Assembly: GCF_900113805.1 (NCBI RefSeq)
Contig: NZ_FOQT01000001.1
Coordinates: 186,001 to 250,000, forward strand
Source of the DNA: Halpernia frigidisoli
Lineage (GTDB): Bacteria > Bacteroidota > Bacteroidia > Flavobacteriales > Weeksellaceae
Reading direction: 5' to 3'
DNA length: 64,000 nt
A model generated the notes under the pieces. The model made no database searches and was not told where the DNA came from. It saw only the letters and a program-made list of their open reading frames with translations. The position numbers and the translations under genes are program-made. Shown piece after piece: positions 42,759 to 47,031 of the stretch; the first letter of the stretch is position 1; every line of letters begins with the position of its first letter.

Positions 42759-43559
42759 TTAAGTAGTTCCCATAACGTACATTGCTTCCATAGTTGGTGA
42801 AGCAACGCCGCCAGTTTTTTCTAATGTAATTGCGAAAGCCTGCGCTTTGTCTATCACCGCCATAGACTGTATTTTTTCGGGTTGACTATCATCAAACATC
42901 CCAGCGCTTACTGGCTTACCGTCAACAATTGCCCAAAGTTGATACTGCTCACCTTTTGGTGCCGCGGGTAAATTATTTACTTTTAAATAAACTTTTTTAG
43001 AAGAATCCCAATAAATATTTGCCAGCATTCCAGGATGCGTTTTTACACCCTCAAGTTTAATATTTCTTGAATTTAGCATCAAAGCATTTTGACTTTGAAG
43101 ATCTGTATTTTGAATTTTTAGCTGGTCATTGCTCGCAGACATTTTAGAAATCTCTTGCTCTTGGTTTTGACTGTTATAAAAATTGTAGCCCAAACTTAAT
43201 AATAAAAGCAGTGATGCTGCTATTAAAGCAAATTTAGAAAAATTGTTACTTTCCTGCTTATTTGAATTCAAAGGAATTACAGGCGCAATATATTTATTAG
43301 TAACGTTAATATCTGAAGTATTGTCGGAATTTTTGCTAAAATCTAATTTGCCAAAAATCTCGGCTTTTAGATGAGAAGGAGGTTCTACAGCATCTATGTC
43401 TGCCAAAAGCTCAAAAGTTTTTTGCGCTTCTAAAACTGCTTCCCGCACTTCCAGATTATTTTTCATTACACATTCCAAAATAGAAGCGTCTTCCTGAGGT
43501 AGAACTCCTAATGCGTATTCTTCAATAATACCGGTTGATATGTAAGTTTTTGTATCCAC
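42759..43559 (-). CDS. Anti-sigma factor, RskA-like
   Basis: A 266-residue membrane-anchored anti-sigma factor. The cytosolic N-terminus (EEYALGVLPQEDASILECVM, about residues 13-32) is a zinc-less anti-sigma domain. One membrane helix lies at about 110-128, followed by a short coiled coil (130-160) and an extracytoplasmic RskA-type domain with GEQYQLWAIVDGKPVSAGMF and AFAITLEKTGGVASPT. It should hold the sigma factor encoded 2 bp upstream and release it on envelope stress. The pair is divergent from msrB and two fasciclin genes. Confidence 0.9.
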   Translation of the reverse strand: MDTKTYISTGIIEEYALGVLPQEDASILECVMKNNLEVREAVLEAQKTFELLADIDAVEPPSHLKAEIFGKLDFSKNSDNTSDINVTNKYIAPVIPLNSNKQESNNFSKFALIAASLLLLLSLGYNFYNSQNQEQEISKMSASNDQLKIQNTDLQSQNALMLNSRNIKLEGVKTHPGMLANIYWDSSKKVYLKVNNLPAAPKGEQYQLWAIVDGKPVSAGMFDDSQPEKIQSMAVIDKAQAFAITLEKTGGVASPTMEAMYVMGTT

Positions 43560-43561
43560 TT

Positions 43562-44119
43562 TTATAAATTGTGTTTAAAACCTTTCAACAATTCGCGCAG
43601 TTCTCTTATTGCTGCCCTGCAGCGCGTTTTCACTGTTCCCAAAGGAATTCCAAGATCTTCTGAAATTTCCTCGTGGGTGAAACCGCCAAAATAAGCTTTA
43701 TTAATTATGATTTTATAGTCGTCACGAAGTTTATCTACAAAAGACTGTACTTCATTAAACTCATGTTTCTGCTCCGTTGAAAGTGTTGTACTGTCATTTA
43801 CGAAGTCAGGAATACTTTGGTTTTTAAGATCGTTTCGAAAGGATTTAGATTTAAGACGGTCGATCGCTGAGTTGCGTGCTATATTGAGCATCCACGTGTA
43901 AAGGCTGCCTTTATTTTCGTCAAAAGAATTGATGGAATTCCATACTTTCACGAAGACATCCTGCAAAACTTCGTTCGTCTCTTCTTTGTAGGTAATGATT
44001 TTAATAATTATTCCATAAAGTGCACCGGAATAATTTTCATACAAATAATTAAAGCCAGATTCATCTCTGCTTTTCAGCAAAGTGACCAATTGTTCTGTTG
44101 TGAGCTTTAGTTTATTCAA
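43562..44119 (-). CDS. ECF sigma factor, SigK-like
   Basis: A 185-residue ECF sigma factor. Region 2 covers about residues 20-95 (NEVLQDVFVKVWNSINSFDENKGSLYTWMLNIARNSAIDRLKSK) and region 4 about 120-180 (AYFGGFTHEEISEDLGIPLGTVKTRCRAAIRELRELL). The pairing with an RskA-type anti-sigma makes it SigK-like. The start is TTG 44119; no ATG lies near the N-terminus in frame. Likely targets are the divergent msrB and the fasciclin genes, given the shared upstream motif described separately. Confidence 0.9.
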   Translation of the reverse strand: MNKLKLTTEQLVTLLKSRDESGFNYLYENYSGALYGIIIKIITYKEETNEVLQDVFVKVWNSINSFDENKGSLYTWMLNIARNSAIDRLKSKSFRNDLKNQSIPDFVNDSTTLSTEQKHEFNEVQSFVDKLRDDYKIIINKAYFGGFTHEEISEDLGIPLGTVKTRCRAAIRELRELLKGFKHNL

Positions 44120-44230
44120 AATCTTAATTCGTTGTAAATATAAATCAATTTTTAAAGAACAGAAACTTTTTTTAAAATTTTTTCGTAAATTATCGTGAAA
44201 TATTCACATAATTAGTAAATAAAAATAATA

Positions 44231-44773
44231 ATGAAATTTAAAGTCTTAAAATTAGCAGCAATTTGCCTATTTGCAATTGCTATGAGTTCAAATGTAGCAG
44301 CTCAAAAAATTCAGATCGTTAACGGAAAAAAGATTGTTAATCCTTTTTATTCCCGTACAAATACTTCAATATTACGATTAACCGATGCTCAATGGAAAAA
44401 AGTCTTAAGTAAAGATTTATATGCCACTGCGCGCAAAAATGATACGGAAGCAGCTTTTACGGGAAAATACAATGAGTTTGATGGTTTGGGCACTTATTAT
44501 TGTGCAGCTTGCGGCAATGCGCTTTTTCGTTCAGATGCAAAATTTGCTTCAACTTGCGGTTGGCCTAGCTTTTTTGAAACAATGAGACCTAAATCTGTTA
44601 TCTATAAAAAAGATGCATCCTATAATATGGTAAGAACTGAAGTCCGATGTGGCAGATGTGATGCGCATTTGGGGCATTTGTTTGATGATGGTCCTACTGC
44701 AAATAAAAAAAGATACTGCATGAACTCCATCTCTCTGGAATTTGTACCGGATAAAAAAATGGCGAAAAAATAA
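44231..44773 (+). CDS. msrB: Exported peptide-methionine (R)-S-oxide reductase
   Basis: A 180-residue enzyme that repairs methionine-R-sulfoxide in proteins. An N-terminal signal (MKFKVLKLAAICLFAIAMSSNVAAQ) directs it to the periplasm. The zinc cysteines are in CAACGNALF and CGRCDAHLGH, and the catalytic Cys is in RYCMNSISLEF. The whole MsrB core is intact. It lies first in the group divergent from the SigK/RskA-like pair, so envelope oxidative stress is the likely context. A partial copy of the motif found upstream of the fasciclin genes occurs 42 bp before its ATG. Confidence 0.95.
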   Translation: MKFKVLKLAAICLFAIAMSSNVAAQKIQIVNGKKIVNPFYSRTNTSILRLTDAQWKKVLSKDLYATARKNDTEAAFTGKYNEFDGLGTYYCAACGNALFRSDAKFASTCGWPSFFETMRPKSVIYKKDASYNMVRTEVRCGRCDAHLGHLFDDGPTANKKRYCMNSISLEFVPDKKMAKK

Positions 44774-44798
44774 ATCTAAAAATAATTTGTGTTCGTAA
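44772..44798 (+). promoter_or_regulatory. Putative sigma-specific promoter of fasciclin gene 1
   Basis: AAATCTAAAAA (44772-44782), exactly 10 nt, then TCGTAA (44793-44798). The same two blocks with the same spacing occur at 45811-45837 before the second fasciclin gene. It is 55 bp before the ATG. Confidence 0.5.
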
Positions 44799-44853
44799 AT
44801 TATACCAACACAATGTCACTATGTATTTTTTCAACTATTAAAATTCATTATTT

Positions 44854-45429
44854 ATGAACTATTCAAAAATCACAACCTCAGCATTAGCAGTCCTAATGAC
44901 TTTCGGTTTAGCAAATCAGGCTTCTGCACAGAAGATGATGACAAAGCAAAAGACCGTAATGGTTGGTGGAGCAGCAATGTACCCTACTAAAAACATCATA
45001 GAAAACGCGGTTAATTCTAAAGACCACACAACTTTGGTTGCGGCAGTAAAAGCAGCAGGTTTGGTAGAAACTTTATCAGGTAAAGGGCCTTTCACCGTTT
45101 TTGCTCCAACAAATGCAGCTTTCGAAAAATTACCAGCTGGAACTGTAGAATCAGTTTTGCAGCCTGAAAATAAAGCAACATTGACTTCGATCCTAACTTA
45201 TCACGTAATAGCACGAAAAATTTCTTCTAAAGATTTAGCCGCCTGGATTGCGAAAGGAAAAGGAAAGTACACAGCGAAAACTGTTCAGGGAGAGAAATTA
45301 ACATTTACAGCTAGCGGAAAAAATATCTATGTTTCTGATATGAAAGGGAACAAAGCAAAAGTTACCATCGCAGATGTTAACCAGTCAAATGGTGTTATAC
45401 ACGTTATAGACACGGTATTAATGCCATAG
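44854..45429 (+). CDS. Secreted fasciclin-domain protein 1
   Basis: A 191-residue protein with a Sec signal peptide (MNYSKITTSALAVLMTFGLANQASAQ) and one FAS1 domain (about residues 45-190). FAS1 landmarks are HTTLVAAVKAAGLVETL, GPFTVFAPTNAAFEKLPAGTV, LTYHVIARKISSKDL and the closing VNQSNGVIHVIDTVLMP. FAS1 domains mediate adhesion or protein contact at cell surfaces. It is a close paralogue of the gene at 45885, differing mainly in its N-terminus. Predicted periplasmic or secreted. Confidence 0.93.
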   Translation: MNYSKITTSALAVLMTFGLANQASAQKMMTKQKTVMVGGAAMYPTKNIIENAVNSKDHTTLVAAVKAAGLVETLSGKGPFTVFAPTNAAFEKLPAGTVESVLQPENKATLTSILTYHVIARKISSKDLAAWIAKGKGKYTAKTVQGEKLTFTASGKNIYVSDMKGNKAKVTIADVNQSNGVIHVIDTVLMP

Positions 45430-45459
45430 TTTTCATAGTTTTTTAATGTTATGTGAAGG

Positions 45460-45493
45460 TGCCGCAATTGGAGATAATTGCGGCATTTTTTAT
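45460..45493 (+). terminator. Terminator after fasciclin gene 1
   Basis: GCCGCAATT/AATTGCGGC stem, 6-nt loop and T run. The stop-to-hairpin sequence closely matches that after fasciclin gene 2. Confidence 0.9.
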
Positions 45494-45810
45494 TTAAAAG
45501 AATTTGTTTTAATTTTAGTATTTAATATTACTAAAAATTTTTATTTATTAAAAAATAAAACTACTTTGGTTCATTAATTGTAGTAGCCAAAAAGTACAAA
45601 ATTTAATTATTTTGAAAATAATTTGAGAATTTTATCCTTAGATTATATAGAAAAAAAGCTTTTAATTATGTATAAAATTTAATATTAAATGAAAATGAAG
45701 ATTTTGTATATATTTAGCGTCTCTTTTAACTAAAAACAGGTAAAATAAATTGAGAGTTAATTTATTAACACAATTTTAACACATTGTTTTAAAATAAAAA
45801 AACGAACATT

Positions 45811-45837
45811 AAATCTAAAAAATTTAAGCTGTCGTAA
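45811..45837 (+). promoter_or_regulatory. Putative sigma-specific promoter of fasciclin gene 2
   Basis: AAATCTAAAAA (45811-45821), 10-nt spacer, TCGTAA (45832-45837), matching the arrangement at 44772-44798. It is 47 bp before the ATG. Confidence 0.5.
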
Positions 45838-45884
45838 GTAACATTATAAACTTTCACTAAAATAATAATTAAAAAAGTAAAATT

Positions 45885-46472
45885 ATGAACTATTTAAAAA
45901 TGACCGTAGCAACACTTGCATTAACTGCAGGGATTGCATTTTCAACTCAATCTTGCTCATCAATGATGGGAAACAAATCCATGGATATGGATAAAACAGT
46001 AATGGTTGGTGGAGCAGCAATGTATCCTACAAAAAACATCGTTGAAAACGCTGTAAATTCAAAAGACCATACAACTCTAGTTGCAGCTGTAAAAGCAGCA
46101 GGTTTAGTAGAAACTTTATCAAGTAAAGGACCATTCACGGTTTTCGCACCTACGAATGAAGCTTTCGATAAATTACCTGCAGGAACTGTAGATACAGTTT
46201 TAAAACCTGAAAATAAAGCAATGCTTACTTCAGTTTTAACTTACCACGTTGTTCCGGGAAAAATTTCTTCCAAAGATCTTGCTTCATGGATCATGAAAGG
46301 TAACGGATCCTACATGGCAAAAACTGTACAAGGTGAAGAATTAACTTTTACAATGTCAGGAAAAAATATTTATGTTGCTGATATGAAAGGCAACAAAGCA
46401 ATGGTAACAATTGCAGATGTAAACCAATCTAATGGAGTAATACACGTTATTGACAAGGTATTAATGCCATAG
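45885..46472 (+). CDS. Fasciclin-domain protein 2, probable lipoprotein
   Basis: A 195-residue paralogue of the preceding fasciclin protein. The FAS1 domain (about residues 48-195) is nearly identical, with FTVFAPTNEAFDKLPAGTV, LTYHVVPGKISSKDL and VNQSNGVIHVIDKVLMP. The N-terminus differs: MNYLKMTVATLALTAGIAFSTQSC ends in a Cys suited to lipid attachment, though the lipobox (TQSC) is weak, so this copy is probably membrane-anchored while copy 1 is soluble. A Met-rich linker (SSMMGNKSMDMDK) follows and could be an oxidation target for MsrB; that is inference. Confidence 0.93.
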   Translation: MNYLKMTVATLALTAGIAFSTQSCSSMMGNKSMDMDKTVMVGGAAMYPTKNIVENAVNSKDHTTLVAAVKAAGLVETLSSKGPFTVFAPTNEAFDKLPAGTVDTVLKPENKAMLTSVLTYHVVPGKISSKDLASWIMKGNGSYMAKTVQGEELTFTMSGKNIYVADMKGNKAMVTIADVNQSNGVIHVIDKVLMP

Positions 46473-46501
46473 TTTTCATAGTTTTTTTATGTTATGTTAA
46501 G

Positions 46502-46535
46502 ATGCCGCACTCTAAAAAGGGTGCGGCATTTTTTA
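46502..46535. terminator. Terminator between fasciclin gene 2 and GNAT gene
   Basis: ATGCCGCAC/GTGCGGCAT perfect 9-bp stem with a 10-nt loop and T run; serves fasciclin gene 2 and may serve the convergent GNAT gene. Confidence 0.9.
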
Positions 46536-46536
46536 T

Positions 46537-47031
46537 TTAAAATTTAAATTCCATTAAAAAATCATCCATAACGAAGCCGTTTCCTATATCAAAAGTTCCT
46601 TCTCTATATGTCTCAAATCCTTGTGATTCGTAGAATTTGATAGCTGGATTTTCCTTGTTCACATTTAAAATTATTCTGCTATTATCAGTTTTTTTTATTT
46701 CAGATTTTAAAAATTCAACTGCAAATTTTCCGAATCCTTTTCCTTTTGTTTCCTTTAAAAGATAAATTCTGTGAAGTTTGGTCGTATTTTTTTCATAACA
46801 AGTTTCAAAACCCAAAATGCCGACTGCAGTATTTTCTGCTGAATTAATTAAATAATATTTATAATTTTTATTCTCAAAATCTTTACTTAAAGCTTTTTCA
46901 CTGTACATAATTTCAAGCATATAATCGATTTGTTCATCAGAAATAATGCCTGGATAATTGGCGCGCCAGCTTTTTTCTGCTAAAGATTTAATTAGAGGTA
47001 TATCTTTTTCTTCTGCTTTTTTGATCGTCAT
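46537..47031 (-). CDS. GNAT family N-acetyltransferase
   Basis: A 164-residue acetyl-CoA-dependent acetyltransferase. The CoA-binding signature (R/Q-x-x-G-x-G/A) appears as LLKETKGKGFGKFAVEFL (about residues 96-113), followed by ILNVNKENPAIKFYESQGFE, the typical GNAT C-terminal strand-helix. The substrate is probably a small amine or protein N-terminus and cannot be assigned. It is single, convergent with the fasciclin genes and divergent from rimO. Confidence 0.88.
   Translation of the reverse strand: MTIKKAEEKDIPLIKSLAEKSWRANYPGIISDEQIDYMLEIMYSEKALSKDFENKNYKYYLINSAENTAVGILGFETCYEKNTTKLHRIYLLKETKGKGFGKFAVEFLKSEIKKTDNSRIILNVNKENPAIKFYESQGFETYREGTFDIGNGFVMDDFLMEFKF

Follow-up and report, generated by a model that had tools for sequence, protein, structure and literature searches.

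Among described systems, the mpt83-sigK-rskA cassette comes closest to the locus analysed here; a 2008 paper by Veyrier is cited on it (PMC7509140). MPT70 is a secreted protein, CCATCC is the motif associated with SigK promoters, and promoters of ECF sigma factors share an AAC/CGT architecture. Our literature search yielded no mycobacterial SigK promoter consensus for comparison. The cassette is described from mycobacteria and Yersinia, with a predicted SigK site before mpt83 (PMC7509140). The same account reports a SigK-type cysteine pair in 94% of ECF18 and 56% of ECF19 factors (PMC7509140), and a CGT −10 box has been described in ECF-type promoters (PMC9723704).

The window, a 64,000-nt stretch of the 3.02-Mb genome of Halpernia frigidisoli, contains a comparable arrangement. 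From left to right, an anti-sigma gene (42759..43559, minus strand) and an ECF sigma gene (43562..44119, minus strand; 185 aa, TTG start) are followed on the plus strand by msrB (44231..44773), whose product is a methionine-R-sulfoxide reductase (SelR) that appears to carry a signal peptide, and by the fasciclin-domain genes FAS1a (44854..45429; apparent signal peptide) and FAS1b (45885..46472; likely lipobox), the signal peptides and lipobox being judged by eye. A domain search found the RskA C-terminal domain (PF10099) in the adjacent anti-sigma factor at 78 bits against a cut-off of 29.4. The best NCBIfam model for the sigma protein was SigK (PRK09646; 126.8 bits, under the cut-off of 226), and among solved structures RpoE (2q1z, E 3.1e-22) ranked first and SigK (4nqw, E 7.6e-21) second. 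The protein has a single cysteine (Cys 167) and lacks the SigK-type cysteine pair of PMC7509140. The protein plainly resembles SigK, but not to a degree that settles its identity, and the pair is absent; we therefore refer to the factor only as SigK-like. Among 98 relatives, cysteines at alignment columns 135 and 170 each occur in 20, perhaps as a pair like that of SigK, which the window protein lacks.

The locus resembles the cassette in joining a SigK-like ECF factor to an RskA anti-sigma factor and, as putative targets, FAS1 proteins, where the cassette has MPT70 and MPT83 (PMC7509140). MPT70 is itself a FAS1 protein, and FAS1b matches its solved structure (E 2.3e-17). As a secreted protein and a lipoprotein by eye, FAS1a and FAS1b would echo the MPT70/MPT83 pair, MPT83 having a described lipid anchor (PMC7509140). 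The locus differs in belonging to another phylum and in having msrB, a second MsrB gene and a ferritin-like gene among its predicted targets. Moreover, the available text of PMC7509140 names no intragenic promoter for the cassette, whereas one is predicted within the window sigma gene. For fasciclin genes linked to ECF or anti-sigma factors in Bacteroidetes or Flavobacter, our literature search found nothing on point.

A spaced two-block motif precedes msrB and both fasciclin genes

An earlier note on this DNA had claimed that a motif, AAATCTAAAAA-N10-TCGTAA, recurs upstream of both fasciclin genes. Both exact copies are present (44772-44798 and 45811-45837), at the claimed distances of 55 bp from the ATG of FAS1a and 47 bp from that of FAS1b. 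We read these as predicted plus-strand promoters. For FAS1a (44772..44798), a −35 element, AAATCT (44772-44777), and a −10 element, TCGTAA (44793-44798), are separated by 15 nt (N15); the −35 element overlaps the final two bases of the msrB stop codon, and a conserved T follows at 44800. For FAS1b (45811..45837), AAATCT lies at 45811-45816 and TCGTAA at 45832-45837, again with N15. Upstream of msrB, where a partial match had been noted, a site does exist, but it is not partial: GAAACT (44162-44167), N15 and TCGTAA (44183-44188) form a full predicted promoter with the same spacing (44162..44188, plus strand).

FAS1a and FAS1b are tandem duplicates that share 81% identity over 550 nt, i.e. most of each gene and ∼70 nt on its 3′ side, and the duplication spans 44854-46542. 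In agreement with the claim that the flanks differ, their 5′ leaders are 53% identical, compared with a mean of 56% for shuffled leaders. The shared motif is thus an island of similarity between leaders that otherwise match no better than shuffled sequence. With up to three mismatches allowed, the window contained five matches where chance predicts 2.95; besides the two exact copies, each of these has three mismatches.

The motif is conserved at orthologous loci

We collected msrB and FAS1 upstreams beside the orthologous sigma gene from H. humi, Kaistella montana, K. palustris, a Chitinophagaceae MAG and those family genomes that had a sigma match at a threshold of E 1e-30 (48 of 148; the other 100 had none). 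This gave 76 distinct upstreams, including the window's own three. The window copy (L056), a locus from the same species as L057 (L031) and the distant own FAS1 loci (L043, L046 and L047) were left out. Two loci without msrB or FAS1 (L033 and L035) fall outside the upstream count, and four of the 48 sigma loci, with neither gene in the stretch examined (L065, L067, L068 and L111), enter no upstream count.

The earlier note had taken an A-rich stretch as the conserved part; in relatives, the conserved pattern is instead NAA(A/T)C(C/T)-N15-NCGTANNT (hereafter NAAWCY-N15-NCGTANNT). At exactly N15 it was present in 72 of the 76 upstreams (30/30 for msrB and 42/46 for FAS1), a count in which genomes of the same genus are not independent. 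Dinucleotide shuffles of the 76 upstreams gave a mean of 0.14 and a maximum of 1, and each other spacing from 8 to 23 was found in 0 to 4 of them. The four FAS1 misses are near-sites, with AGAACC at N15 (L060 and L061) or a 16-base spacer (L082 and L109). A 16-base spacer was also seen inside the sigma gene of L254. The first −10 base, before CGTA, is T, C or G, with TCGTA in 65/72 sites, and three positions past CGTA all 72 sites carry a T, a base that the search pattern did not specify.

A held-out set was analysed with a rule, fixed beforehand, that specified A or G as the first −35 base. In 18 fresh genomes, 16 of 27 upstreams fitted (msrB 11/11; FAS1 5/16). Ten of the 11 misses differ only by having C as the first −35 base, so 26/27 fit once this base is freed, a relaxation that was made after the data were seen.

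A matching site within the sigma gene

Unexpectedly, and beyond anything in the earlier note, the sigma gene itself contains a site in the sense direction (43798..43824, minus strand; −35 AAAACC at 43824-43819, N15, −10 TCGTAA at 43803-43798). This site, one of 16 matches in its own genome (L053), lies 238 nt before the anti-sigma start, and its codons specify a portion of the linker (KNQSIPDFVN) that joins the two DNA-reading domains. NAAWCY-N15-NCGTANNT was found in 87 of 98 sigma genes, at the same codon in 85, and 200 synonymous shuffles of the 98 genes gave a mean of 2.06 and a maximum of 7. Clustering retained the signal: the site was present in 26/36 representatives of 75%-identity clusters (shuffles 0.49, maximum 3) and in 13/22 of 60% clusters (shuffles 0.22, maximum 3). 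With rules written beforehand, held-out samples gave 15/20 sigma genes for the phylum and 39/62 for the class, Bacteroidia (synonymous shuffles of the class sample 0.83, maximum 5). Pooled, 126 of 160 sigma genes have the intragenic site, 123 of them at one alignment column and three from one genus (L224, L270 and L331) eleven columns away; nine sigma matches (G210, G303, G323, G416, G538, G632, G656, G690 and G723) are outside the counts. The site was absent from 11/98 and 23/62 sigma genes, and where the intragenic promoter is lost another arrangement may replace it. A trade-off between an upstream site and intragenic loss was considered and rejected (Fisher P = 0.0095 in the first set and 0.35 in the second).

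The site is maintained by codon choice. In 79 sigma genes its codons are nearly invariant (AAC for N100, TTC for F106 and GTA for V107). Codon 106 ends in C in 148/159 genes, across eleven amino acids, whereas 44.8 are expected from the same genes; valine 107 is encoded by GTA in 143 of 148 cases, and codon 108 ends in T in 145/155 (88.9 expected). When third-base bias was ranked over 704 column/base combinations in the 160 sigma genes, the top three were 106-C, 107-A and 100-C, with 108-T in fifth place after column 174, which is outside the motif. Per-column scores in the 98 genes reached z 9.8 at non-motif columns, so some of the bias reflects shared ancestry; the top ranks still belong to the motif, with 106-C, 107-A and 100-C at 11.3–13.5.

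The best reading of these data is that the intragenic site is a sigma-dependent promoter that would raise anti-sigma levels, acting as a negative-feedback brake. Alternatively, sigma–RNA polymerase might bind the site without productive transcription and, as a roadblock or decoy, reduce sigma-gene transcription. Such a roadblock would be negative feedback too, and there is a precedent in Streptomyces coelicolor, whose sigma E, also an ECF factor, reportedly represses certain genes by binding its own recognition sequence (PMC10771440), a route by which the present factor could likewise lower expression. Unlike the case described there, the present site sits within the sigma gene and faces the anti-sigma gene (87/98 sense versus 4/98 antisense), and what characterizes the msrB/FAS1 promoters, the T beyond the −10 element among it, is retained. 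We therefore consider a roadblock unlikely and favour the anti-sigma promoter. An N-terminally shortened sigma product expressed from this promoter was also considered but is not proposed, as in-frame start codons beyond the site share no position in the six genes inspected.

Intragenic promoters are known in other ECF circuits. In Caulobacter, the sigV promoter is within cabp (PMC13171946); there, a promoter in a neighbouring gene drives sigV, whereas here a promoter in the sigma gene would drive the anti-sigma gene. No anti-sigma gene driven by a conserved promoter inside a sigma gene was found in our literature search, which subscription papers mostly fell outside. For Bacteroidia as a whole, we think it reasonably probable that ECF sigma genes contain a sigma-dependent promoter between the regions encoding the DNA-reading domains, held by codon choice and acting as a brake via anti-sigma.

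Association with the neighbouring sigma factor

A site also precedes the sigma gene itself in 5/98 loci (L033, L210, L213, L215 and L227) and in 5/62 further loci. L033 is from a Chitinophagaceae MAG, and L210, L213 and L215 are from one family. In more distant relatives, further genes next to the sigma gene have the site in front; they encode DUF4331 proteins, identified by Pfam in L221 and by sequence likeness in L255 and others, and small RIDF-motif proteins (L227 and L252). The DUF4331-like proteins (“DHIDAP” or similar) lie beside the sigma gene in other families with the site in front (L221:2257-2904, L226, L229, L231, L255 and L271). The RIDF-motif proteins, which are alike by eye, have the site in front in three genera (L237:1554-1973, L252:1095-1523 and L227:912-1343), and Pfam gave no match for those of L237 and L252.

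These placements bear on a rival view, in which generic ECF promoters would be served by another ECF factor, or by several, and not specifically by the neighbouring sigma. ECF promoters typically have a CGT −10 box. SM6, a motif with such a box from ECF-type promoters of another member of the Bacteroidota, Flavobacterium psychrophilum, was not attributable to any single one of seven ECF factors (PMC9723704). The selected SM6 targets presented there are T9SS and other genes, whereas the targets here would include FAS1 and msrB; “fasciclin” and “sulfoxide reductase” do not appear in the main text of that paper (PMC9723704). Against a generic promoter, many families have the site both next to this particular sigma gene and within it, and a few genomes have it upstream of the gene. 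In addition, of 16 family genomes without a sigma match (from the 100), 11 had no FAS1 match and five had divergent FAS1 genes with no site in the locus examined, although this is a weak control because their FAS1 proteins are only 36–44% identical. Generic recognition is accordingly improbable in our view, and the repeated motif is very probably a promoter for the neighbouring stress sigma factor, which would turn on surface and repair genes. The earlier suggestion of a promoter for a SigK-like factor thus gains support from comparative evidence, namely architecture, conservation and recurrence at orthologous sigma genes.

Promoter features and genome-wide distribution

The sites have the architecture of ECF promoters: a −35 element with an invariant C, a −10 element with CGT, and a fixed N15. 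As had been claimed, they are unlike the housekeeping box TAnnTTTG, which was absent from all 76 msrB/FAS1 upstreams (110 nt each). Before sigma genes, that box was found in 60/98 cases compared with 9.5 in shuffles. In the window, TATATTTA (44135..44142, minus strand), upstream of the sigma gene, is one base off this box, and TATATTTG is present in the sigma upstreams of H. humi and K. montana. The lack of a housekeeping box in the 76 upstreams also argues against the motif being an operator for a dedicated repressor or activator. A two-block form is seen in binding sites as well, but this motif is not palindromic, its N15 is rigid and its 72 conserved copies sit 21–62 nt before start codons, which makes an operator very unlikely and again favours a promoter.

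Genome-wide, the bare motif shows no excess. When at most one mismatch was allowed, AAATCT-N15-TCGTAA matched the 3.02-Mb genome 72 times, compared with 93 for a reversed control; the counts were 16 versus 13 for RAAWCY-N15-TCGTAA and 59 versus 73 for RAAWCY-N15-NCGTAW. We therefore do not use raw counts, which are not clearly above the control, as evidence, and the case rests on placement and conservation. Six of the 16 RAAWCY-N15-TCGTAA matches are intergenic and 33–55 bp before a start codon, compared with 0/13 in the control (one-sided Fisher P = 0.017), where the nearest match is 127 bp from a start codon; without the three sites that suggested the pattern, the numbers are 3/13 versus 0/13 (Fisher P = 0.11). 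In six other genomes (61 matches, 11 of them outside inspection), most inspected matches were again inside genes. The earlier note had named a motif equally common at random positions as evidence against its proposal; raw counts agree with that objection, whereas placement and conservation do not. That A-rich upstream sequences are alike by chance, as an AT-rich genome and the unenriched counts might suggest, has a negligible probability given the spacing-specific conservation (72/76 versus 0.14 in shuffles).

The six placed matches precede msrB, FAS1a, FAS1b, a second MsrB lipoprotein gene (L002), a ferritin-like Tat-signal protein gene (L049) and an M36 peptidase gene (L006), the last being only a candidate target. 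The third FAS1 gene of the genome has AAATCT-N15-ACGTAT 31 bp before its ATG, within a spurious-looking 80-aa ORF of the crude gene caller. The second MsrB and third FAS1 genes answer the proposal in the earlier note that further FAS1 or msr genes be checked for sites; upstreams examined for the remaining two of the five FAS1 genes had none. The second MsrB gene also has the site in G006 (L235), a genome of the same genus whose sigma locus has upstream sequences identical to those of H. humi DSM 21580. For the ferritin-like gene, sites were likewise seen in G113 (L244) and, next to the sigma gene, in G054 (L199). L205 and L206 have the ferritin-like gene behind FAS1, so in the window genome a gene at a separate location, with a site to itself, carries the same predicted promoter. 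This Tat-signal protein travels with the system, being encoded 3′ of FAS1 (L205:1-530 and L206:3010-3534), divergently from the sigma gene (L199:758-1471) or at a distance with its own site (L049:745-1461); the Pfam assignment is that of L049.

Other candidates were not retained. A site precedes tatA in the window genome (L118), but none of the seven relatives whose upstreams were examined (of nine; L274 and L280 left out) had one, so tatA was rejected as a regulon member. Glutathione peroxidase is not claimed as a target: its ORFs (L225:344-973 and L228:2795-3382) lie 0.3–0.6 kb 3′ of a site near the sigma gene (336 nt in L225 and 566 nt in L228), with a 41-aa ORF intervening in L228. Further matches to the wider pattern were seen in L116, L120, L122 and L136.

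Discussion

The motif, its exact spacing, its placement, its conservation and the codon-level selection within the sigma gene were all established by computation. Building on them, we propose that RNA polymerase with the adjacent SigK-like ECF sigma factor reads one block as a −35 element and the other as a −10 element. The RskA-type anti-sigma factor would hold this sigma until a signal arrives and then release it. Released sigma would turn on msrB, FAS1a and FAS1b and, elsewhere in the genome, the genes for the second MsrB lipoprotein, the third FAS1 protein and the ferritin-like Tat-signal protein, a predicted target set that joins the envelope to oxidative repair (methionine-sulfoxide repair, FAS1 and ferritin-like proteins). 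In 60/98 relatives the sigma gene itself is preceded by a housekeeping-type box.

Transcripts from the intragenic promoter would include the anti-sigma gene but begin beyond the sigma start codon. Because this predicted sigma-dependent promoter is inside the sigma gene, active sigma would make a transcript for anti-sigma and not for functional sigma; the ratio of anti-sigma to sigma would rise, and the response would be shut down. RskA inhibits SigK but has also been reported as a SigK activator (PMC7509140), so extra anti-sigma need not act as a brake alone. Recognition by the SigK-like sigma is inferred, as are transcription at these sites, the signal itself and which way the feedback runs. 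For the model as a whole, with promoters of the SigK-like factor at the targets and an intragenic anti-sigma promoter as a brake, we estimate a probability of about 0.75.

This reading would equip a widespread ECF factor of the Bacteroidota with a concrete code for its promoters and with an initial regulon (FAS1, MsrB and ferritin-like proteins, with DUF4331 proteins in other genera), and would link that factor to the SigK-RskA-MPT83 cassette of mycobacteria and Yersinia. The intragenic site reveals regulatory selection within a coding sequence that can be read from codon choice across families. Feedback through an internal anti-sigma promoter would thereby become testable by a handful of silent changes.
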